From contig NZ_AP025943.1 in the NCBI RefSeq assembly GCF_026072915.1, positions 2,542,001 to 2,606,000 on the forward strand: a stretch of 64,000 bases of DNA. The letters run 5' to 3'. The position numbers and the translations under genes were made by a program. This document shows positions 32,478 through 64,000 of this stretch, one piece after another (positions within the stretch are counted from its first letter, which is position 1; the number at the start of each line of letters is the position of its first letter). The notes under the pieces are model-generated. The model made no database searches. It was not told the DNA's origin and was given only the letters and a program-made list of their open reading frames with translations. The DNA comes from Akkermansia biwaensis. Its GTDB lineage: Bacteria > Verrucomicrobiota > Verrucomicrobiia > Verrucomicrobiales > Akkermansiaceae.

Positions 32478-32560
32478 GCCCTCGTGGCGGAATGGTAGAC
32501 GCTGCAGACTTAAAATCTGTTGATCGCAAGATCGTACCGGTTCGAGTCCGGTCGGGGGTA
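32478..32560 (+). tRNA. tRNA-Leu (anticodon TAA)
   Basis: This is a class II tRNA: acceptor GCCCTCG with CGGGGGT, D-arm TGGCGGAATGGTAGACGC, anticodon loop CTTAAAA giving TAA, a variable arm TGATCGCAAGATCGT, T-arm CCGGTTCGAGTCCGG and discriminator A73. CCA is not encoded. Confidence 0.95.
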
Positions 32561-32594
32561 CTTCGCTAAACAGCAATAAATTACATAGATAAAA

Positions 32595-33358: not shown

Positions 33359-33974
33359 ATTTTCAGGAGTGAGGAATTGTTGGTCGTGCCTCTATTTTGG
33401 GGAAGCAAGGTTTTCCGAACCAATGGTGCAAGGCGCCCGTTTCAGTCAAGCGCAGGAATGCTTCATAAAAGACTGGCAGGTTGAGTGAGGGTGGTTTTCT
33501 CCCTCTGGAGATGATGGCGGAATTAGAGGTGTGCTTGAGGTGGTGTTCTGGAAGGTATTGATTCAAAAACGCCTGCTGGATAGCTTTTATAAATGAATTA
33601 GAAAAGAATATTTTTCCATATTTTTGAGAGAAGGAATAGTTACTGCGACTTTCAGCAGAAGCTTTCTGTTCTCAACGTGGCAGGCGGGATGATATTTCTC
33701 CTGATCACGTACAGATTTGGGAAGAAGTGGTATCGATTATTGCCGTTTTTACCCAGCGCATAAAGAATTATTGTCTTGGGCCGGGAAAAACGGGTAATGG
33801 CGGATACCTTTGCTTCGGAAGAGAAAACTTCCATAGGGAACCGCTTCGTCAGTTGTCTTGGACGCCGAGTCAACCGAGCATAGTTGGATATTTTCGACTG
33901 CCGGCTGTCCGGAGCCCCCCATTAAAACTGAAAATGAAAGCGTTTTACAACGCTTGCAACCAACAAAAATAATC
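33359..33974. other. Intergenic region before the first fibre-like gene
   Basis: About 615 bases. Short frames on both strands (for example 33363-33566 minus) match nothing I know. A small hairpin AAGCG/CGCTT (33938-33942 with 33951-33955) lies about 20 bases before the next start codon. The region could be decayed coding DNA, but I cannot identify its source. Confidence 0.45.
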
Positions 33975-35489
33975 ATGGATAAAATTACCACTATTAACGG
34001 AATTCTCATGGCTACGCAGAATGATTTCAATGAGCATGTTGAGGATGCAACCGTTCACGTAACGGAAGAAGAACGTACGGCATGGAATGCCAAGGCGGAC
34101 GCTTCCGCTTTAGCTTCTCATGAAGAGAATGCGGCCATTCATGTTTCCCGGGAGGAAAACGACACGCGTTACGGGCAGCTGAACGCGGAAAATACATGGA
34201 CGCAGCCCCAGACTTGCAATGCAGTGGTTAATGCAAAGGGAGGCATATGTGTTCCGGTGCCTTCCAGCGCTCAAGAGGCTTTGAACTATGATAGCTGGTT
34301 ATTCTTCAGGGCTGCGAATGAGTGGCCTTTGGTATGTAATAGCGGTATAGCAGCCATACCCGCATGGTGCGAAATCATTCATCGGTGGCAGGCCGGCAAT
34401 ATAGGCTGCCGCACGGCCAATGCGTCCCTCCAGTACGGAGCTATTATCTCAGATAACTGGCACCATCTGGTCTTTACTTTCACGCCGGCGCCAGGCCTTT
34501 CATTACTTCTTGGAAAGACCCATGCGTGGCAATTTTCTGGATTTATTGGAGATTATGGCTCTATGGAAGAATGGGCTGGCGCCGTATCCTGGTACTTGAG
34601 CAATGCTGATCGCGTTTCCCTGATGCTTGGTTCAACTTCTCATGGATATGGTTCGGAAAATAATTCAAATTCAGAATGTTATAATCATTCTATACACTGG
34701 GCTACCAGTAATATGACTTCTTACAGATATCCGTACACGAATTCCATTAACAAGAATAATGCGAGAGACTCATTGCCTGCATACCAGATAACCACCTATG
34801 GGAAGGAATATCTGGGATCTTCCTCTTCATGTCTGGTACGGGGCACGCACTATGGAGCGCCTGTTGATCAAATTGAGTATGTATGGGCACTGGTACCGTC
34901 CCTAAGCCGGATCGCCGTAGCGATGGCTCCTCGCAGCAGCCAGGATTACAGGGATACCATGAACAGGTGGGAGTTGTGGATTAACGGCAATTATGTAATG
35001 CCCATGACGGCGGAATTTTACGGTCTTGGACACACCTGTGCGATTAGCACGGCTGTCAAGGCTCACGAGGTAACGGCTACCCGGCAACTCGGACTCAGGA
35101 TGTCCGGCATGCGGGTGGATAACCGCAATAAACTGGGAGGGAAATCGGCCATTGAAATTTTAAGCCAAGTGGTCATGTCCGGAGTGACTCCCAAGCCGAT
35201 TCCTGTAGTGGAAGCCAGTACGCTGGATGTACCTGCTGCCGGAGGGGATGTGATATTGACCGTCTCTTCTGTTCTTGCAGAAGATATCTATATTCTTAAT
35301 GACACCATGTGCGGACATGATCCTGCCGCTGTATGGTGCCGTCAATCCACGGAACAGGTGCCGGGAGGGAGTGGGGAGGTGACGTTGACGCTCGCAGCCA
35401 ATGCGACCGGGGAAGGCCGGGAAGTATGGGCCTTCATCAGCCATCATTATGGGCAGGCTTCCGTCGTCAAGATCAACCAGACAGCTTGA
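33975..35489 (+). CDS. Tail-fibre-like modular protein A with C-terminal BACON-like domain
   Basis: The ATG at 33975 gives 504 residues beginning MDKITTINGILMATQNDF. There is no signal peptide. Residues 18-60 contain two spaced repeats of the pattern H(V)..A.(V/I)HV..EE (HVEDATVHVTEEER; SHEENAAIHVSREEN), typical of tail-fibre shafts. The centre (about 90-420) is rich in Trp, Tyr, Ser and Asn and resembles no family I know. The last about 85 residues (from PIPVVEASTLDVPAAGGDV to the C-terminal VKINQTA) look like a BACON-type Ig-like carbohydrate-associated domain. A strong terminator follows. A paralogue at 38783-40204 shares the head and tail plan but not the centre. No phage structural gene is nearby. 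Confidence 0.75.
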   Translation: MDKITTINGILMATQNDFNEHVEDATVHVTEEERTAWNAKADASALASHEENAAIHVSREENDTRYGQLNAENTWTQPQTCNAVVNAKGGICVPVPSSAQEALNYDSWLFFRAANEWPLVCNSGIAAIPAWCEIIHRWQAGNIGCRTANASLQYGAIISDNWHHLVFTFTPAPGLSLLLGKTHAWQFSGFIGDYGSMEEWAGAVSWYLSNADRVSLMLGSTSHGYGSENNSNSECYNHSIHWATSNMTSYRYPYTNSINKNNARDSLPAYQITTYGKEYLGSSSSCLVRGTHYGAPVDQIEYVWALVPSLSRIAVAMAPRSSQDYRDTMNRWELWINGNYVMPMTAEFYGLGHTCAISTAVKAHEVTATRQLGLRMSGMRVDNRNKLGGKSAIEILSQVVMSGVTPKPIPVVEASTLDVPAAGGDVILTVSSVLAEDIYILNDTMCGHDPAAVWCRQSTEQVPGGSGEVTLTLAANATGEGREVWAFISHHYGQASVVKINQTA

Positions 35490-35590
35490 GGGGACTGACC
35501 AAATCAGAAACAACGTTCTCCAGATCAATTCCCGGTAGAAGAAAAATTTCCGGCACCCTTTTGTTTTCCGTCCGTTGAAAGTTGTTTCCC

Positions 35591-35634
35591 CGGCCTCGCA
35601 TGGCTTCCGTTGTGATCCATGCGGGGCCGTTTTT
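35591..35634 (+). terminator. Strong terminator after fibre-like gene A
   Basis: CGGCCTCGCATGG (35591-35603) pairs with CCATGCGGGGCCG (35617-35629) with one G-U pair, followed by five T. Confidence 0.88.
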
Positions 35635-35739
35635 ATGGAATTGACCCCGTCAGCATGTTGCCCTACGATTGTCTGCAATTCAGGGGAGCCTTGGAAATGT
35701 CGTTTCCGGGCTTCCCCGGATTTCCAACACCAATCCTCT

Positions 35740-36654
35740 ATGATCAAAAAGAATATTTTCCCTGCATGGGGAATCGCCTGCCTCGTGCTGTCGGCATTCT
35801 CTCCCCTGATGGCGCGCGCCCTTGACTCCTATGATGCCGCTTTGGACAAGGTAAAGGCCATGCAAGCCAAAGCCGATCCGGTCAAACAGAAGAACCGGAC
35901 AAAAAATCTTGTGAATCTGAAGCTGCGGCTGGAAGCCCTGAAAAAAGGGCAGGATGTCAATGCCGGAGACGATATGACCTGGTCCGCCCTCGCCTGGGCA
36001 GCTTATGTAGGCGACAAGGAGATTTTCGACTACCTGCTTTCCAAGGGGGCGAATCCCAGAAGGACGGACCAGTACGGCATATCCGTGTTCATGAGGGCGG
36101 CGGAAGGAGGCAATATGGACATCGTCAAGTACCTGGTGGAGGAATGCAAATGCGACCCAAATGAGAAGGACCGGGAATACGGAATTACCGCCCTGATGCG
36201 TGCAACTACCTGCAGGCGTCATGGAGTTGTCAATTATCTGCTTGAGAAAAAGGCCAGTGTCCGGTTCAGAGACAAGGGCGGCCGGAATGTGCTGGCCTAT
36301 GCCGCCGAGGGCAGGAATATGGATGATATGGAAATGCTGGTGGCCAGGGGCGCGGATTTGAATGTTACGGATAAGGAAGGCCGCACCCTGCTGATGCAGG
36401 CTTCGGAAAAAGGAAATCTGGAGATGGTGCGGTACCTGGTCGGGAAAGGGGCAAAGGTGAAAGCCAGGACAAAGTACGGAAAGACGGCGCTCATTTTTGC
36501 CGCGGAAGGCGGTTATCTGGATGTCGTGGGTTATCTGGTGGATCAGGGAGCGGATATCAAGGCCAGGAATAAATGGGGAGACTCCGTCCTGGATATCAAG
36601 ACGGTGGATCCGGCGGTCAAAACTTATCTGCGTTCCAGGCTGAAAGCAAAATAG
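35740..36654 (+). CDS. Secreted ankyrin-repeat protein
   Basis: The ATG at 35740 gives 304 residues with a signal peptide (about 1-26, ...SPLMARA). An N-terminal helical region (about 27-80) precedes about seven ankyrin repeats (about 82-295): TWSALAWAAYVGDKEIFDYL, YGISVFMRAAEGGNMDIVKY, YGITALMRATTCRRHGVVNY, GGRNVLAYAAEGRNMDDMEM, EGRTLLMQASEKGNLEMVRY and YGKTALIFAAEGGYLDVVGY. Ankyrin stacks bind proteins; exported ones may act in the periplasm or on partner cells. The SanA-like gene starts 18 bases later, so the two form an operon. Confidence 0.9.
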   Translation: MIKKNIFPAWGIACLVLSAFSPLMARALDSYDAALDKVKAMQAKADPVKQKNRTKNLVNLKLRLEALKKGQDVNAGDDMTWSALAWAAYVGDKEIFDYLLSKGANPRRTDQYGISVFMRAAEGGNMDIVKYLVEECKCDPNEKDREYGITALMRATTCRRHGVVNYLLEKKASVRFRDKGGRNVLAYAAEGRNMDDMEMLVARGADLNVTDKEGRTLLMQASEKGNLEMVRYLVGKGAKVKARTKYGKTALIFAAEGGYLDVVGYLVDQGADIKARNKWGDSVLDIKTVDPAVKTYLRSRLKAK

Positions 36655-36672
36655 AAATTACTGTCTGTAAAG

Positions 36673-37404
36673 ATGATCAACAGATTGGAAAAACTGGGCA
36701 GGGGGCTGTGGAAGAGGAAGAGAAAAATCCTGATTTTGATGCTGAAGACTGGATTGGCGGCGGTGGTTGCCGTGGGTGTGCTGGTAGCCGTCTCCGAATG
36801 GTATGCGGATTCCGCTTCCCGGGGCCGTCTGTTCGACCATCCCCGTGATGTCCCCGTCAGGGCCGCAGCCCTGGTGCTGGGGTGTTCACCTACGTTCATG
36901 GGCGGTCCCAACGGCTATTTTGACAACAGGATGGACACAGCGGCGGAACTTTGGAAGGAGGGGAAGGTGACTGCATTTGTCGTATCCGGAGACAATTCCT
37001 CCCATGACTATAATGAACCGGAAGCAATGAAGCAGGCCCTGGTGGAACGGGGCGTTCCGGAAGACCGGATTGTCTGCGATTTTGCCGGATTGAGGACGCT
37101 GGATTCCGTGGTACGGATGAAGGAGGTGTTTGGCGCCTCTCAAATGATCGTCGTTTCCCAGACCTTTCATAACAGGCGCGCCCTGGCGATTGCCCGGTAC
37201 AATGGGATGGATGCCTATGCCGTGAATGCTCCGGACGTGCCCAACCGCCGTTCCCGGGTTAAAAGCTGGATCAGGGAACGCGGCGCCCGCATGTGGATGA
37301 TGATGGATTTGTGGCTGTGGGGCAGGGAGCCTCGTTTTCTGGGAGATCCGGTCGCACTGCCGGAAGAGGATGGGGGAACTGTCCAAACGCCTCATAACTC
37401 TTGA
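36673..37404 (+). CDS. SanA/YdcF-family (DUF218) envelope protein
   Basis: This is a 243-residue protein with a basic N-terminus, a membrane anchor (about 20-42) and a DUF218 domain. Family motifs are AAALVLGCSP, RMDTAAELWKEGKVTAFVVSGDN, EPEAMKQALVERGVPEDRI, LRTLDSVVRMKEVF and VVSQTFHNRRALAIARYNGMDA. In E. coli the relative SanA affects envelope permeability to vancomycin; the biochemical activity is unknown. It follows the ankyrin gene by 18 bases. Its stop codon lies in the loop of the terminator hairpin at 37387-37424. Confidence 0.9.
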   Translation: MINRLEKLGRGLWKRKRKILILMLKTGLAAVVAVGVLVAVSEWYADSASRGRLFDHPRDVPVRAAALVLGCSPTFMGGPNGYFDNRMDTAAELWKEGKVTAFVVSGDNSSHDYNEPEAMKQALVERGVPEDRIVCDFAGLRTLDSVVRMKEVFGASQMIVVSQTFHNRRALAIARYNGMDAYAVNAPDVPNRRSRVKSWIRERGARMWMMMDLWLWGREPRFLGDPVALPEEDGGTVQTPHNS

Positions 37405-37424
37405 AATGTCATGAGGCGTTTTTT
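37387..37424 (+). terminator. Terminator overlapping the end of the SanA-like gene
   Basis: ACGCCTCAT (37387-37395) pairs with ATGAGGCGT (37411-37419), then TTTTTT. The stop codon at 37402-37404 is in the loop, so a ribosome finishing translation would cover the 5' arm. Confidence 0.88.
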
Positions 37425-37623
37425 GGGCAGTCCGTCAGACCGGCAGGAATGAACGGACCTTCTTTCAGCAGGAGTGATGTTTAATCAATAATCTCGGTTA
37501 CGCGGGCCAGTCTGCCGCGGCCGCATGGAACGGTCCAGCGTTCCTGTGTGAACAATCCGTCATGTGCATGGAAAAGGAATATAAAGATTGGCAGCATCTG
37601 CGGGGAATGCTACCGTGCGCCCT

Positions 37624-38274
37624 ATGAAGGAGGAAGATGATCTGGTTCGTGTAGCGCTGCCTCCGCGCTGGCTGGAGTGGGCCGTGGAAATCCAGTTTCT
37701 GGCCCAGGCGGGAATCACCTACACCAAAGACTCTTATGATCTGGAACGCTTCGAGCGACTGAGGGATATTGCTGCTGAAATCATGAGTGCCAGGTCCGGG
37801 CTGGATATGGATACGGTCCGCGGCCTGTTTTGCAATGAAACGGGATTTCAAACGCCCAAGATGGATACGCGGGCTGCCATTTTCAGGGACGGCAACATTC
37901 TTCTGGTCAGGGAAACGGAGTCCGGCCTGTGGTCCCTGCCGGGCGGCTGGGTGGATGTGAACCGGTCCGTGCGGGAAAATACGGCTAAGGAAGTGTGGGA
38001 GGAAGCGGGCCTGGAAGTGGAACCCGTCCGGCTGATAGCGCTTCATGACCGCAACAGGCATAATCCTCCCCCCTATGCCTACGGAGTCTGCAAAATCTTC
38101 GTTCTCTGTGAAGAACGGGGTGGAAGCTTCCGCTCCAATGTGGAAACGTCTGAAAGCCGCTGGTTCGGCAGGGAGGAACTGCCTCCCATGGCTCTGGAGA
38201 AAAATACGCCTGAACAGGTGCGGCTGTGCTTTGACGCCGCGGCGGATCCGCTCTGGAATCCTGTTTTTGATTAA
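37624..38274 (+). CDS. Nudix hydrolase with Nudix_N-type N-terminal domain
   Basis: The ATG at 37624 gives 216 residues; an in-frame TTG at 37588 is an alternative start. Residues 14-60 (WLEWAVEIQFLAQAGITYTK...YDLERFERLRDIAAEI) match the N-terminal domain found in the YjhB-like subgroup. The Nudix box at about 106-131 reads GGWVDVNRSVRENTAKEVWE then EAGL. The EV.EE core that binds metal is present; the first box Glu is Arg and the box Arg is Lys, both usual in this subgroup. It probably hydrolyses a nucleoside diphosphate linked to X (for example ADP-ribose). It stands alone between two terminated units. Confidence 0.88.
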   Translation: MKEEDDLVRVALPPRWLEWAVEIQFLAQAGITYTKDSYDLERFERLRDIAAEIMSARSGLDMDTVRGLFCNETGFQTPKMDTRAAIFRDGNILLVRETESGLWSLPGGWVDVNRSVRENTAKEVWEEAGLEVEPVRLIALHDRNRHNPPPYAYGVCKIFVLCEERGGSFRSNVETSESRWFGREELPPMALEKNTPEQVRLCFDAAADPLWNPVFD

Positions 38275-38782
38275 AAGGGAAACGGCGGATTAGTACCGAA
38301 CGGAAAATCCCGCTCAGGCCGTGGAGTGTGAACCTGCCTTGCTTTTTTCGGTATGGAACGCTGGGGCACCTGTGTTTGCGTGCAGGGGGCAATGTCGCCA
38401 TTGGCGTTTCCTCTTGGGGAAAAGTTTGGAGACGGCAGGCTTCCGCGGCATGAATTCCAGTGTTCTCCCTCGAAGCCTTTCTGTGCCGTTTTACAACAGA
38501 TGAGGATCAGTTTTTCCTTTCATGCGGAAGGAGGGGGGAATGGTATGGATGGTGAGAGAATGGTGGGGCCGATGTTTTTTTCACGTTCGGAGCCACAGTC
38601 CCGCTTCATCGGAACGCAGAAGAATTCCTCTTGAACGTGACACATTGGATGTAATTGTTGCGGAAAAGTATCAAAATCATGATAAAGCGTTCATTTCCAT
38701 TGTTTTTATCGTTCAAATTGAAAGGTACTCAGTTAGGGACAAGGATGGATCGGAACCTTTTCATAGATAAACGGAGATAAAT
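38275..38782. other. Intergenic region before the second fibre-like gene
   Basis: About 510 bases with no supported gene. GGAG (38773-38776) shortly before the start codon at 38783 is a usable ribosome binding site for the fibre-like gene. I see no shared long element with the region upstream of fibre-like gene A. Confidence 0.5.
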
Positions 38783-40204
38783 ATGGATAAAATTACTACC
38801 ATCAACGGAGTTCTCATGGCGACTCAGAATGATTTTACCGAGCACGTCGAGAATGCGAATATTCATATCATGGAAGAAGAGCGGACGGCATGGAATGCTA
38901 AAGCTGACGCCCATGAATTGGGCTCTAAACTGGATACCGATGTCTTCACTGCCCATGAATCCAATGCGGTGAAGCATGTTTCAACAGAAGAGAGAGAAAA
39001 ATGGAACAGGGCGCCGGAAACCGACGCAGCCGGGAATATGGCTCTTGCCGGGAATCTGACCGCTGCGGGAGGTTCGTTTACGGAATCCGTCCATGCCGGC
39101 GCAGGAATAAACATTCCTGTCAGTCCTGTAGCCGATACGGATGCGGCCCGCAAACTGGATTTGTCCCGTCCCCTGTTTTTGCCGGATGGCAATAATAAGG
39201 ATACCCTGGGCTGGAACCTGTTTGTCCGGAACGGACGCCCGACCACCTATTTCGGGCATTTGGTGAATTTGGATGACCCTGTGCTGATTCTACAGAACTG
39301 TGTTCAACAGGGAGACAATTTTGCGGGACACCTTCGGGGAGAGTATACCTACACCCTGGATTTGTGCGGTTACAGGATTGACCATCCCGACGGCTCCAGC
39401 CGCAATACGAGACCCGAGGGGGTGCATTGCCAGTGGGGAAGACTGTATAACGCGAATCCCGTGTCTGCCACAGCCAGGCCGGCCAACAGGTACGATACCG
39501 CTCTTGCGATAGCTGACAGCTGGAGGGATTACACAGGGGGAAGCCCGATGGTGTGGCCGATTTCCACCGGCGGGGACGGCAAGCAGAGGTTCGGGTTCGT
39601 GGCCGGATTCCGGAATAACCTGCTCAACGGGCGCAACCTTGATTATTTGTTCGCTGTTCTGCCCTCAGACTGGGTGAGGCTTATCCTGTATTCTCCCGGT
39701 TATGTAGATAATCAGGGTGATCTGGCTAACAAGCAGTGGCATAATAATATCTATTTATTTGCCCAGGACTGCCGGGGTGAGAGTTATTATATTGGCTATG
39801 CCATTGATGCCGGCTGGTCGGATTACGCACTTGCCATGAGCAACCACGGGAGGGACGGCGTGTTGAAAATGACGATATACTCCGGAGACGTTTACGGATT
39901 GAGGAACCGGTCCGTCTGCATCCATGAGGGATCAAATATCAGGACGACGGGACGTTATCCCATCAGCCAGAGTCTGTTCAAGCCGGATCGTACGGCACAA
40001 GTACTGTCCATATCCATTTCTTTGGAAGATACTTCCTATGAAGTAGTGGACAAGCCGGAGTGGATTGCCGTGTCTGCCGCGGATGGCGGTACTTTGGAAT
40101 TGACCTTGACGGCTAATGAGACGGGAGCGGAACGCCTTGGCCTGACTGATCTCAGGATGAGCAATGGAGTAACCTATTCCATTGTGATTTACCAACAGGC
40201 CTGA
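38783..40204 (+). CDS. Tail-fibre-like modular protein B with C-terminal BACON-like domain
   Basis: This is a 473-residue protein starting MDKITTINGVLMATQNDF, nearly identical to fibre-like protein A for about 45 residues. It then carries its own shaft repeats (HVENANIHIMEEERTAWNAK; HESNAVKHVSTEEREKWN) and a segment DTDAARKLDLSRPLFLPDG of the kind seen in tail fibres. The centre (about 140-395; DYLFAVLPSDWVRLILYSPG, YDTALAIADSWRDYTGG) is unlike protein A except for scattered short echoes such as the YLFAVLPS/YVWALVPS stretch. The last about 70 residues (LSISISLEDTSYEVVDKPEW to the C-terminal YSIVIYQQA) again look BACON-like. No signal peptide is seen. A ribosome binding site (GGAG) and a strong terminator frame it, so it is a single-gene unit. 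Confidence 0.75.
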   Translation: MDKITTINGVLMATQNDFTEHVENANIHIMEEERTAWNAKADAHELGSKLDTDVFTAHESNAVKHVSTEEREKWNRAPETDAAGNMALAGNLTAAGGSFTESVHAGAGINIPVSPVADTDAARKLDLSRPLFLPDGNNKDTLGWNLFVRNGRPTTYFGHLVNLDDPVLILQNCVQQGDNFAGHLRGEYTYTLDLCGYRIDHPDGSSRNTRPEGVHCQWGRLYNANPVSATARPANRYDTALAIADSWRDYTGGSPMVWPISTGGDGKQRFGFVAGFRNNLLNGRNLDYLFAVLPSDWVRLILYSPGYVDNQGDLANKQWHNNIYLFAQDCRGESYYIGYAIDAGWSDYALAMSNHGRDGVLKMTIYSGDVYGLRNRSVCIHEGSNIRTTGRYPISQSLFKPDRTAQVLSISISLEDTSYEVVDKPEWIAVSAADGGTLELTLTANETGAERLGLTDLRMSNGVTYSIVIYQQA

Positions 40205-40283
40205 CAGATGAGGTCGCCATACGGATGGGATATTTCCGTATTCATGATTAAGGGGGCATTGATCACAGATGCCATGATATCGC

Positions 40284-40330
40284 AGCCCATCCCGGACGTA
40301 GGAAATGCGTCCGGGATGGGCTCCCCTTTT
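40284..40330 (+). terminator. Strong terminator after fibre-like gene B
   Basis: A 15-bp perfect stem, AGCCCATCCCGGACG (40284-40298) with CGTCCGGGATGGGCT (40308-40322), is followed by CCCCTTTTC. Confidence 0.92.
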
Positions 40331-41123
40331 CTGGAATGAAGGAATGGTAGGTCGGGATGTTCCATTTGAGATGATTGTGAAGAAGATTTGAAAGCTTGTG
40401 ATGAAGTGTCATGAGAGCTGCCGCTTCATCCGGTAATTCCAATAATATGTGGCCGTCTCAGATCATGGAGGGCTTATCTGCCCATGCCGGGGTGCTTCTC
40501 TGTCCATGAAAAACCAGGTTCCGTTTTCCTGTTTTTCAGTTTTTACAGTAGTTGCCTTTTTCAAGCGGCTGAAAGCGGATATTCCGGAGGGAATATGGAA
40601 TTGTGCCAAGGTTGGACGGTTTCCGCTTCTTCGGATTTTGTTTCTTTCCTACGTGAAGAAATATTTGTTATATATAGATATAACTATTTTTAAATAAATA
40701 TATTATATTTATTTCTAATGGATTTTTCTCTTTTCCGGATATGCATGCCGTTCTCTGCGCCTTTTCAATTCTTTTTCCCTTTTCTTTATTTGAAACTGTA
40801 AGTTTTACGAAAACGCGGAATTTGATTTTGTAAGTATATAGTAATTTGAGTATTAACGTATTGTTTAAATAATTGATTTATTCTGTTAATCATGTTTTTT
40901 GATTAACGGGATTTTTCACAGACAGCACGGCAACCAAATGTCAGAAGAAAGTTTCTGAAATTCCGTAAACTTCAGTTTTCTTATTCTACAGAAGGAAAAT
41001 AAAGAAAATGGCTCCTGCGGAATGGAGATTGTTCATGCAAAGCATTTTTCTGTAAATAGATTGTAAAATTTGCGCGGATTTCAAATTCGCAGTCAATGCA
41101 AATTATATAATTTTTATTACGGT

Positions 41124-41233: not shown

Positions 41234-41255
41234 ATTCGTCCTGTAAAGGACGAAT
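41234..41255 (+). promoter_or_regulatory. Leader hairpin containing a Shine-Dalgarno-like AGGA
   Basis: ATTCGTCCT (41234-41242) pairs perfectly with AGGACGAAT (41247-41255) over loop GTAA. The 3' arm contains AGGA, which would serve an in-frame TTG start at 41256. Folding would hide it. Confidence 0.6.
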
Positions 41256-41294
41256 TTGAAATCCGGTAATCTGGGCCCAGGAATTAGTTTGCCT

Positions 41295-62460: not shown

Positions 62461-63035
62461 CATGGCCTATAAGGGTCTTTCCATGAGGGAAAAGAGGGCA
62501 AGGAAACCAGGCAAATGGAAATTTGGGTCTTGCTCCGGTGTACTTCAACAGGAAGGACTGCCAGGCAGCAATGCGGCGGCTGATAAGAAGAAGGATGCTT
62601 GTTCCTTAATGAGTAATTAAGACATCTTATGTAAAAAGAAAGCGGCCCAAATGTTTTTCCGCTTACCATGCTTGCATTAACGGCTACATATCCGTTTGCT
62701 CTGCAATCGTGGCGCGTTGGAGGCGGGGATAGGGATACTTCAAATTTATATAGAAACATTATCCTGACGGCCGTATTTCCGGATAGGAACGGCTTTGTTT
62801 GGGCCCGACGTTTTTCACAGGATGATATTTCCCAGGAACAGGCGGAAACTTTCCATGAAGTGGTAGTACGCGTTGCCAACTCGAACAGCACGCCAGAAAA
62901 TGAAGGGTACCTTTACCTTCTCGTTATCGACACTTCGGGGAAGAAGCAATAATACCGTCGCGAATCACGACGAAAAGATGTCTATCACTGCAAGACAATG
63001 TCTTTAAAAACCCCGTTTTTATGTTTTGCAGTTTC
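62461..63035. other. Intergenic region between the fucosidase and tmRNA genes
   Basis: Apart from the uncertain 94-codon frame at 62668-62952, I see no gene, RNA or clear terminator in this 575-base stretch. Confidence 0.5.
62668..62952 (+). CDS. Orphan 94-residue protein of unknown function
   Basis: An open frame of 94 residues has protein-like composition (contains RNIILTAVFPDRNGFVWARR and GYLYLLVIDTSGKKQ) and a beta-rich C-terminus. There is no signal peptide, no Shine-Dalgarno sequence and no family match I recall. It lies between the fucosidase gene and tmRNA in DNA of lower G+C. It may be the end of a decayed gene. Confidence 0.35.
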   Translation: MLALTATYPFALQSWRVGGGDRDTSNLYRNIILTAVFPDRNGFVWARRFSQDDISQEQAETFHEVVVRVANSNSTPENEGYLYLLVIDTSGKKQ

Positions 63036-63089: not shown

Positions 63090-63450
63090 TGGTGGAGGCG
63101 ACGGGAGTCGAACCCGTGTCCTGAAGGCCGTTGATACCGGCATCTCCATGTTCAGACGCATGTTGCTGCGTTTCGCGGCCGCTTCGTCATGCGCCAACTA
63201 AGCAGGCTCGCTAGTTGCCTGTGGAAGTCTCGTGCGTTGCGCGGCAACCCCGCATTGCACCAGCCTGCTAAGCTTTCATCATCCCCTCTAGCAGGCGTTG
63301 AGGTTCTGACGCGGCTGAACTAATTAGGCAGCCAGAGCAAGGTCGTTAGACTCTGCATTTATTTTTTTAATCGGCTTTTTAGAAGGCCAGCCGATTAACC
63401 TTCACATGCAGCCAGCACCGCAGACTTCCAGTCGAAACCATGGCGCCCCC
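63090..63450 (-). ncRNA. ssrA: Transfer-messenger RNA (tmRNA)
   Basis: The 5' end (63450) reads GGGGGCGCCATGGTTTCGAC and the 3' end carries the T-arm GGGTTCGACTCCC and GCCTCCACCA, giving an alanine-tRNA-like acceptor (GGGGGCG with CGCCTCC, one G-U). The tag reading frame at 63324-63356 encodes AESNDLALAA followed by TAA; its C-terminal LALAA is the usual ClpXP degradation signal. tmRNA with SmpB rescues stalled ribosomes. It is one-piece, not permuted, with its own terminator. Confidence 0.95.
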
Positions 63451-63605: not shown

Positions 63606-63817
63606 TTTGACTTGCGTCGTTACCGCATAAGCGGTGAGAGAAATATAGATTTTTCTCCGGGAAAGTCAAGATGTTTGTGATGTAATTTGATAAAATAATC
63701 GGCATTTTCTTTTTCCCCAGGGACGGAATTTTCCCATGCCGGCCGGCTGGCATTCCCTTCTGCTCATGGGGAAAGGCGTTGCGCGATGGCGTGTCCTGTG
63801 GCACACTGTGTGTGAAG

Positions 63818-64000
63818 ATGAGTGGGTTCAAGCTGATCAGATCTCCCATGGAGGCATTGAAGGAACACTTCGGGTTTTCCGGGCTGAGGGAGGGGCAGGA
63901 CCGTGTGGTGGCTGCCATCATGGAGGGGCGCAACGTTCTGGTGGTGATGCCTACCGGGGGCGGCAAGTCCCTGTGCTACCAGCTTCCCGCCCTGTGCCGG
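63818..64000 (+). CDS. recQ: RecQ-family DNA helicase, N-terminal part (3' end outside window)
   Basis: Only 61 codons are visible, starting at ATG 63818 (MSGFKLIRSP). The segment HFGFSGLREGQDRVVAAIME matches the RecQ motif 0 region (F.....R..Q...I) and MPTGGGKSLCYQLPAL is the RecQ form of Walker A (motif I). The gene runs off the window, so the RQC and HRDC domains cannot be checked. RecQ helicases unwind recombination intermediates in repair. Confidence 0.92.
   Translation, partial: MSGFKLIRSPMEALKEHFGFSGLREGQDRVVAAIMEGRNVLVVMPTGGGKSLCYQLPALCR

Follow-up and report, generated by a model that had tools for sequence, protein, structure and literature searches.

Tail-fibre genes probably stranded by lost prophages at tRNA and tmRNA genes of Akkermansia and kept for use

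Genes A and B of Akkermansia biwaensis each encode a tail-fibre-like protein, and both lie in a stretch of 64,000 nucleotides, hereafter the window (positions 2542001–2606000, labelled G000:C1, of a contig of 3,175,525 bases; G000 is the genome carrying A and B). Our analysis suggests that they are fibre genes that vanished prophages probably left behind at attachment sites and that have been retained for their usefulness, perhaps against phage adsorption. As to origin, A and B are very likely tail-fibre (receptor-binding) genes of phage origin, left by prophages that decayed at the 3′ ends of tRNA or transfer-messenger RNA (tmRNA) genes. The family to which they belong is regarded as phage-derived because of its tRNA and tmRNA sites, the phage scraps found there, a relic between direct repeats (L090), a prophage inserted beside one member in genome G009, and the phage-like centres of its proteins. 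For the family as a whole, a prophage origin has good support; in the case of B, that origin follows from membership of the family rather than from the gene's own surroundings.

Members of the family share an N-terminal head (MDKITTING..), followed in A and B by shaft repeats (H..T.EE..WN) of the tail-fibre style that the original prediction had recognised. A profile built from nine heads (alignment A1) was run over 76 genomes of the genus and matched 14 at E ≤ 0.001, five of them only at inner, shaft positions of the model. In the remaining nine, where up to 20 kb was fetched around the matches, 51 genes start with the head or a variant of it (8 in G000, 4 in G003, 5 in G007, 8 in G008, 7 in G009, 4 in G010, 8 in G012, 6 in G046 and 1 in G044). 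A search for other MDKITTING heads had been proposed; it found six in G000 besides A and B, one of them (L033) degenerate. In an order-wide sample of 288 genomes drawn evenly, one of 50 genera matched at E ≤ 1e-6. The reading frame is open for at least 150 residues in 47 of the 51 genes, and the centres of 45 proteins fall into 17 groups. This agrees with the earlier view of a modular family, in which a constant head carries varying centres of the receptor-binding type. Where it was seen, the head did not lie in an intact prophage, and so is not confined to ordinary prophages.

tRNA and tmRNA genes were located with ARAGORN on the fetched loci (at L078, a spurious 'tmRNA*' was disregarded in favour of the true tmRNA). 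A hand count put 39 of the 51 head genes no more than 1.5 kb from a tRNA or tmRNA gene, on its 3′ side, and 49 on the 3′ side of the nearest one; L112 is on the 5′ side, and L095 has none within 20 kb. The sites are of 11 kinds: tRNA-Pro(ggg), Thr(tgt), Glu(ttc), Leu(caa), Leu(taa), Val(tac), Gly(gcc), Gln(ctg), Gln(ttg), Arg(cct) and tmRNA. Six of the twelve genes outside 1.5 kb are further genes of rows, at L030, L031, L088, L094, L104 and L105; the others are L095 (beyond a prophage), a gene beyond the L090 relic, B (6.2 kb), its ortholog in G012 (3.4 kb), L084 (4.1 kb) and L112. In three complete genomes, 15 of 23 head genes were within 1.5 kb on the 3′ side, compared with 1.95–2.1% of random 1.3-kb genes, a comparison in which a few of the 52 tRNAs per genome were unlisted and the tmRNA of G009 was not included. 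At the tRNA-Pro(ggg) sites, in nine species, the head-bearing fibres have collagen-like and tail-collar-like parts; Pfam found Collar and Collagen domains in the member at L030 (10798–11577), the only copy so confirmed.

Remains of phages were found at several of these sites. At tRNA-Pro in G008 (L090), a stretch of 5.04 kb lies between direct repeats of 104 nt, 88% alike, that consist of the 3′ end of the tRNA and the bases following it. In the relic are a piece of a fibre (78% identity to a prophage fibre over 156 residues), a broken copy of the small partner gene that marks phage fibre loci, a fibre that bears the head, a partner gene with an open frame, and an endolysin (PHROG E 1.6e-12). 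No integrase was found in L090 by any search, and an apparent integrase scrap seen by eye was unconfirmed. For comparison with phage satellites (like the phage-inducible chromosomal islands, PICI), L090 holds fibre, partner and lysis genes, and integrase fragments occur only at tRNA-Glu. There, at L086 and L092 (G008 and G009), the fragments lie between tRNA and fibre and match a protein of phage contig L166 at 45–48%. An orphan fibre of G008 starts 355 bp from tRNA-Gly; in G009, which belongs to a sister species, a prophage of ~42 kb sits between that tRNA and the same orphan. This prophage has an open Phage_integrase gene beside the tRNA, and several of its proteins resemble those of phage contig L067; a copy of the tRNA-Gly end, 16 nt long, occurs 356 bp before the orphan. 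A fragment at L104 and a protein of the L114 prophage share 85% identity over 89 residues. By our count, 19 of 41 loci have a partner-gene copy or other phage scrap. This figure omits the matches at L108 and L101, as well as those found repeatedly at one host position across several genomes, which were assumed to be host open reading frames (ORFs). Among the partner-gene matches listed, eight have an internal stop. At L088, L094 and L098, an open partner gene stands between two fibres in a row, the first fibre at L098 bearing another head.

As judged by alignment, the centre and tip of many members belong to the phage fibre pool. Compared with fibres of phage contigs and prophages, 31 of 45 orphan centres gave matches at E ≤ 1e-5, and 26 matched over at least 126 columns, nine of these being tRNA-Pro collar members; B, L082, the second gene of L102, L103 and L111 matched over only 43–45 residues next to the shaft. 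The centre of A has 50% identity, over 427 columns, to the fibre of a G003 prophage (L129 10291–12897), at a locus that also encodes a protein with a weak tape-measure match (E 0.0039). It is shared as well with L027, which has the same head, and with L026 and the prophage fibre L028, which have other N-termini.

Some of the phages examined showed the shaft. The shaft repeat is internal to fibres of L166 and L191 and, besides, of L067, and a scan of IMG/VR with the head gave 10 loci, comprising nine shaft matches inside an ORF and one (L074) without an ORF hit. Nine prophage loci in five genomes (L036, L124–L129, L132 and L135, a subset of the places found with the partner gene) have other fibre N-termini. 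A search of IMG/VR with B and tblastn of A and B against known phage records gave no match, and blastn of 33600–40400 gave one, of ~126 bases, in an unannotated fecal phage. No phage with the head at its N-terminus was found, so we infer the parent phages.

A second type of orphan fibre, with a head of the kind MKVNTIPG, was also observed, at L034 8378–9941 (G000), L098, L130, L133, L134, L136 and L026. In most of these loci the fibre is accompanied by the partner gene; L133 is cut short, only some of the parts were seen at L134 and L026, and some loci lie, by eye, beside glycosyltransferase-like genes. The centre of L034 and the fibre of the G000 prophage module L036 share 86% identity over 300 residues, and a head of this kind occurs in viral contig L176.

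Within the window, A and B agree in their N-terminal parts (Table 1). The first 45 residues are identical at 36 positions; the heads are strongly alike, though short of the near-identity originally described. When G000 was searched with A, B matched over residues 1–80 only, which bears out the view that the centres are unrelated. Both heads matched the PHROGs minor tail protein family phrog_3285 (A, E 1.6e-6; B, E 2.6e-9). Pfam BACON was matched by both proteins below its cut-off (A, E 0.036; B, E 0.0015, with BACON_2 at E 0.016), and the ortholog of B in G012 passed it (26 bits against 25); together with the end of the A model, these matches uphold the description of the C-termini as BACON-like. 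Each gene does have a terminator of its own, with a hairpin and T run after both. A stem-loop and T run 3′ of B (40275–40335) folds at -37.6 kcal/mol (z -6.1); a simple terminator scan picked up the terminator of B only, and the hairpin after A came from folding.

Table 1. Features of A, B and their surroundings (positions are those of the window).
Feature	Position	Strand	Basis or remark
Protein A, orphan tail-fibre gene	33975..35489	+	ATG 33975, stop 35489, 504 aa
A head (MDKITTING..) and shaft repeats (H..T.EE..WN), residues 1-78	33975..34208	+	Alignment A1, head model
A variable centre	34209..35201	+	Common to L027, L026, L028, L129
A C-terminal BACON-like beta domain, residues 410-504	35202..35486	+	Confident part of AlphaFold2 model; Foldseek 3zmr
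Terminator-like hairpin after A	35588..35640	+	Fold -27 kcal/mol, z -4.15, T run
Protein B, orphan tail-fibre gene	38783..40204	+	ATG 38783, stop 40204, 473 aa
B head and shaft repeats, residues 1-77	38783..39013	+	Alignment A1, head model
B C-terminal BACON-like domain, residues 400-473	39980..40201	+	Pfam below cut-off; ortholog above
Strong terminator after B	40284..40322	+	Simple scan and fold
tRNA-Leu(taa)	32478..32561	+	ARAGORN; A on its 3′ side, 1.4 kb off
Possible decayed partner-gene copy just 5′ of A	33670..33759	+	Alignment A3 profile, weak: E 0.067 over whole window
Decayed partner-gene copy, 3′ side of tmRNA	62752..62877	+	Profile A3 E 1.2e-12; tblastn E 3e-8
tmRNA gene	63090..63450	-	ARAGORN; same site has head-bearing fibres in G003, G010, G012

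In single-chain AlphaFold2 predictions, the model of A was confident only in its last ~95 residues and that of B nowhere. The best match to the A model in the PDB, as found by Foldseek, was 3zmr, a Bacteroides ovatus GH5 xyloglucanase (97 columns, E 7.5e-5), which we take to carry a BACON domain; from their number, the aligned columns probably correspond to the C-terminal domain of A. Two chains of 3zmr were kept out of six matches at E ≤ 0.001, and the other four (7sqc, 9n3u, 9ijj and 7p4l) were set aside as long, poor alignments. Sequence searches returned no enzyme or solved-structure relative of A or B, and the models of the centres were of low confidence, so that clear homology of a centre to a known enzyme did not emerge.

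The surroundings of A and B were searched by tblastn with the proteins of 10 loci bearing prophages or phages and four L090 relic proteins. No capsid, lysis or integrase gene was found near A or B; elsewhere in the window, only the partner-gene scrap near the tmRNA and a match at 63626–63904 adjoining tRNA-Arg were returned. G000 does contain a prophage-like tail module ~75 kb from A and B, with a long tape-measure-like ORF, a 753-residue fibre whose N-terminus resembles those of phage contigs L152, L161 and L177, and the partner gene. The impression of fibres with no phage is therefore correct for these gene classes close by, but not in view of the tRNA sites, phage scraps, phage-like centres and tail module; the tRNA-Leu 1.4 kb 5′ of A, the six further head genes and the scraps had been overlooked. 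A CRISPR-like array was seen close to where the prophage-like tail module ends (L036 1695–2203; G000 ~2494.2–2494.7 kb), with 8 repeats of ~31 nt ending GTGCGTGGATTGAAAC at a spacing of 64–66 nt. Directly 3′ of A, at 35740–36654, lies an ankyrin-repeat-like protein with a signal-like start (by eye). An invertible promoter was considered at both genes and rejected: A has only a pair of 12 nt separated by 561 nt and a hairpin of 11 nt, and B has none. Perfect 15-bp inverted repeats, 161 nt apart (41075–41089 and 41251–41265), do occur just 5′ of a polysaccharide cluster, as in invertible promoters, for which the phase-variable cps1 treated in the accessible part of PMC13343947 offers a comparison.

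Retention by purifying selection is supported, on the evidence of substitution patterns, for several members including B, and not for A. The ratio of nonsynonymous to synonymous divergence (dN/dS) was 0.134 for B (G000/G012) and 0.245, 0.18, 0.22, 0.215, 0.31 and 0.141 for six other syntenic pairs. Pooling the seven pairs gives 157 differences that are nonsynonymous and 227 that are synonymous (P 1.3e-48 when nonsynonymous changes are assumed to make up 0.76 of the total under neutrality), the tRNA-Gly pair contributing only 4 and 7 differences. Flanking ORFs had dN/dS of mostly 0.02–0.3, with outliers to 2.16, some of which may not be genes; constraint on the fibres is therefore no stronger than on their neighbours, and is often weaker. 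For B, silent divergence was 0.35, higher than the 0.15 and 0.23 of its two neighbours. The test excluded the second fibre of L088/L094, L082/L077 (0.49, synonymous divergence (dS) 1.34), L091/L085 (0.27), a partner-gene pair (0.44) and all tRNA-Pro pairs (0.10–0.35 where dS was finite, G008 left out), mostly since their divergence exceeded that of their neighbours or orthology was unclear.

These data suggest a sequence of events. Prophages would integrate at the 3′ ends of tRNA or tmRNA genes and decay, leaving the fibre gene, sometimes with the small partner gene and lysis scraps, and the stranded family would keep a common N-terminal cap and shaft. A fibre made in the cell might then bind the surface receptor of an incoming phage and lower adsorption; or it might enter the tail of the incoming phage in place of the phage's own fibre and lower infectivity. 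Swapped centres would track the receptors in circulation. Protection of the host is the use we consider most likely, if tentatively, by analogy with StfE2, a fibre chimera of the cryptic Escherichia coli prophage e14 that, according to the accessible part of PMC12529663, blocks adsorption of T2. A bolder form of the proposal is speculative and rather unlikely: that a single clade of Akkermansia maintains banked fibre genes at the tRNA sites of phage integration, with a host-adapted head lost from phages, as a distributed, exchangeable defence in which fibres with centres copied from current phages occupy receptors or spoil tails.

Several observations weigh against the view that stranded genes were kept for use. 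As to origin, 22 of the 41 loci had no phage scrap counted; a 14-nt exact-match test found no attachment-site repeats besides those of L090, at A and B included; B stands far from its nearest tRNA and has no partner-gene match close by; and the centre of B, common to three other orphans, had no phage match in the sets searched. In the stretches examined of 62 IMG/VR contigs carrying the partner gene (found with alignment A3, up to ~18 kb around it), no fibre starts with the head. The search was seeded with the head, and relics retaining other phage genes were not sampled. As to use, four of the 51 head genes are cut to fewer than 110 residues, among them the G046 copy of A, which is the only syntenic relative of A and ends after ~79 residues, so A has no intact syntenic copy. 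No obvious signal sequence was seen by eye in A or B, which bears on how a cytoplasmic fibre would reach the surface, and padloc gave no match for A, B or the partner protein. Finally, the second fibre of L088/L094 at tRNA-Val has a dN/dS of 0.135 with a dS of 1.36, compared with mostly 0.01–0.07 around it, and several tRNA-Pro pairs have a dS of 0.5–0.7, compared with mostly 0.1–0.2 in their flanks. Silent divergence so far above the flanks indicates that alleles were replaced in place, which fits a store of fibre parts for phages equally well.

Such a store comes second in likelihood to protection, though we think it rather unlikely. The genes would be unused by the host, phages at the same tRNA sites would swap centres by homologous recombination, and the open frames would reflect selection on phages. 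Centres shared with phage fibres, the replaced alleles at tRNA-Pro and tRNA-Val and the prophage integrated beside the G009 orphan would all be expected, and in E. coli phages are known to recombine with defective prophages, as described in the accessible part of PMC3945230. However, several pairs whose silent divergence is like that of their neighbours, or at most about twice it, are still constrained, a sign that the genes were in use while they resided in the chromosome of the host. The absence of an N-terminal head around the partner gene in the 62 phage contigs likewise indicates that at least the head is not being shared there.

It is improbable that the orphans serve as spare fibres in trans, built by resident prophages or a tailocin into their tails to widen the range of the particles. 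Their centres and partner-gene family are those of prophage fibres, and G000 has a prophage-like tail module; the head, however, is unlike the N-termini of those phage-contig fibres that were listed upstream of the partner gene. Phage_sheath_1 (PF04984) matched 2 of the 76 genus genomes but nothing in G000, which speaks against a contractile tailocin only; other sheath, tube and extracellular contractile injection system (eCIS) models were not searched. On that PF04984 search alone, the suggestion of contractile-injection fibres was rejected for G000.

Survival by chance at the edges of decayed prophages, with no present use, also appears improbable. Phage scraps, attachment-site repeats and integrase fragments at the sites would suit it, as would the four truncated heads, the G046 copy of A among them. 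Against it are the dN/dS values of 0.13–0.31 in the seven syntenic pairs, which already disfavour it for B, and the contrast between 47 of 51 open head genes and the eight listed partner-gene matches with an internal stop. A host surface adhesin or mucin binder unrelated to phages is very improbable: BACON-like ends are proposed carbohydrate or mucin binders and Akkermansia lives on mucin, but the phage fibre homology and tRNA sites argue against it, as does the lack of a signal sequence or anchor by eye.

Retained prophage genes are common; what is unusual here is a whole family of single fibre genes with a shared head, at 11 kinds of tRNA or tmRNA gene, constrained where testable after loss of the phage. 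Were the fibres used by the host, they would represent a class of phage defence acting at receptor level in a major gut bacterium; were they used by phages, they would form a chromosomal store of host-range parts. A literature search, with subscription journals mostly outside its coverage, turned up no apparent description of the head family.

Among known systems, cryptic prophages such as e14 with StfE2, as presented in the accessible part of PMC12529663, are alike in being phage remnants at chromosomal sites with a surviving fibre gene, and provide a precedent for an adsorption block. The Akkermansia family differs in consisting of single fibre genes or pairs at 11 kinds of tRNA or tmRNA gene in one genus, and in having one common head, unseen in the phages examined; in addition, B lacks close inverted repeats and A has only its distant 12-nt pair. 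Defective prophages that act as recombination donors for temperate phages (PMC3945230, in the part accessible) show a similar mosaic exchange between remnant and active phage, whereas here the exchange is focused on a single class of gene, and copies passed on vertically are under constraint too. Akkermansia prophage and IMG/VR fibres with the partner gene (L028, L036, L129 and others) have like centres, tips and small partner gene, but they have other N-termini, are mostly 390–875 residues long and, in the prophage loci read, stand beside other tail genes.

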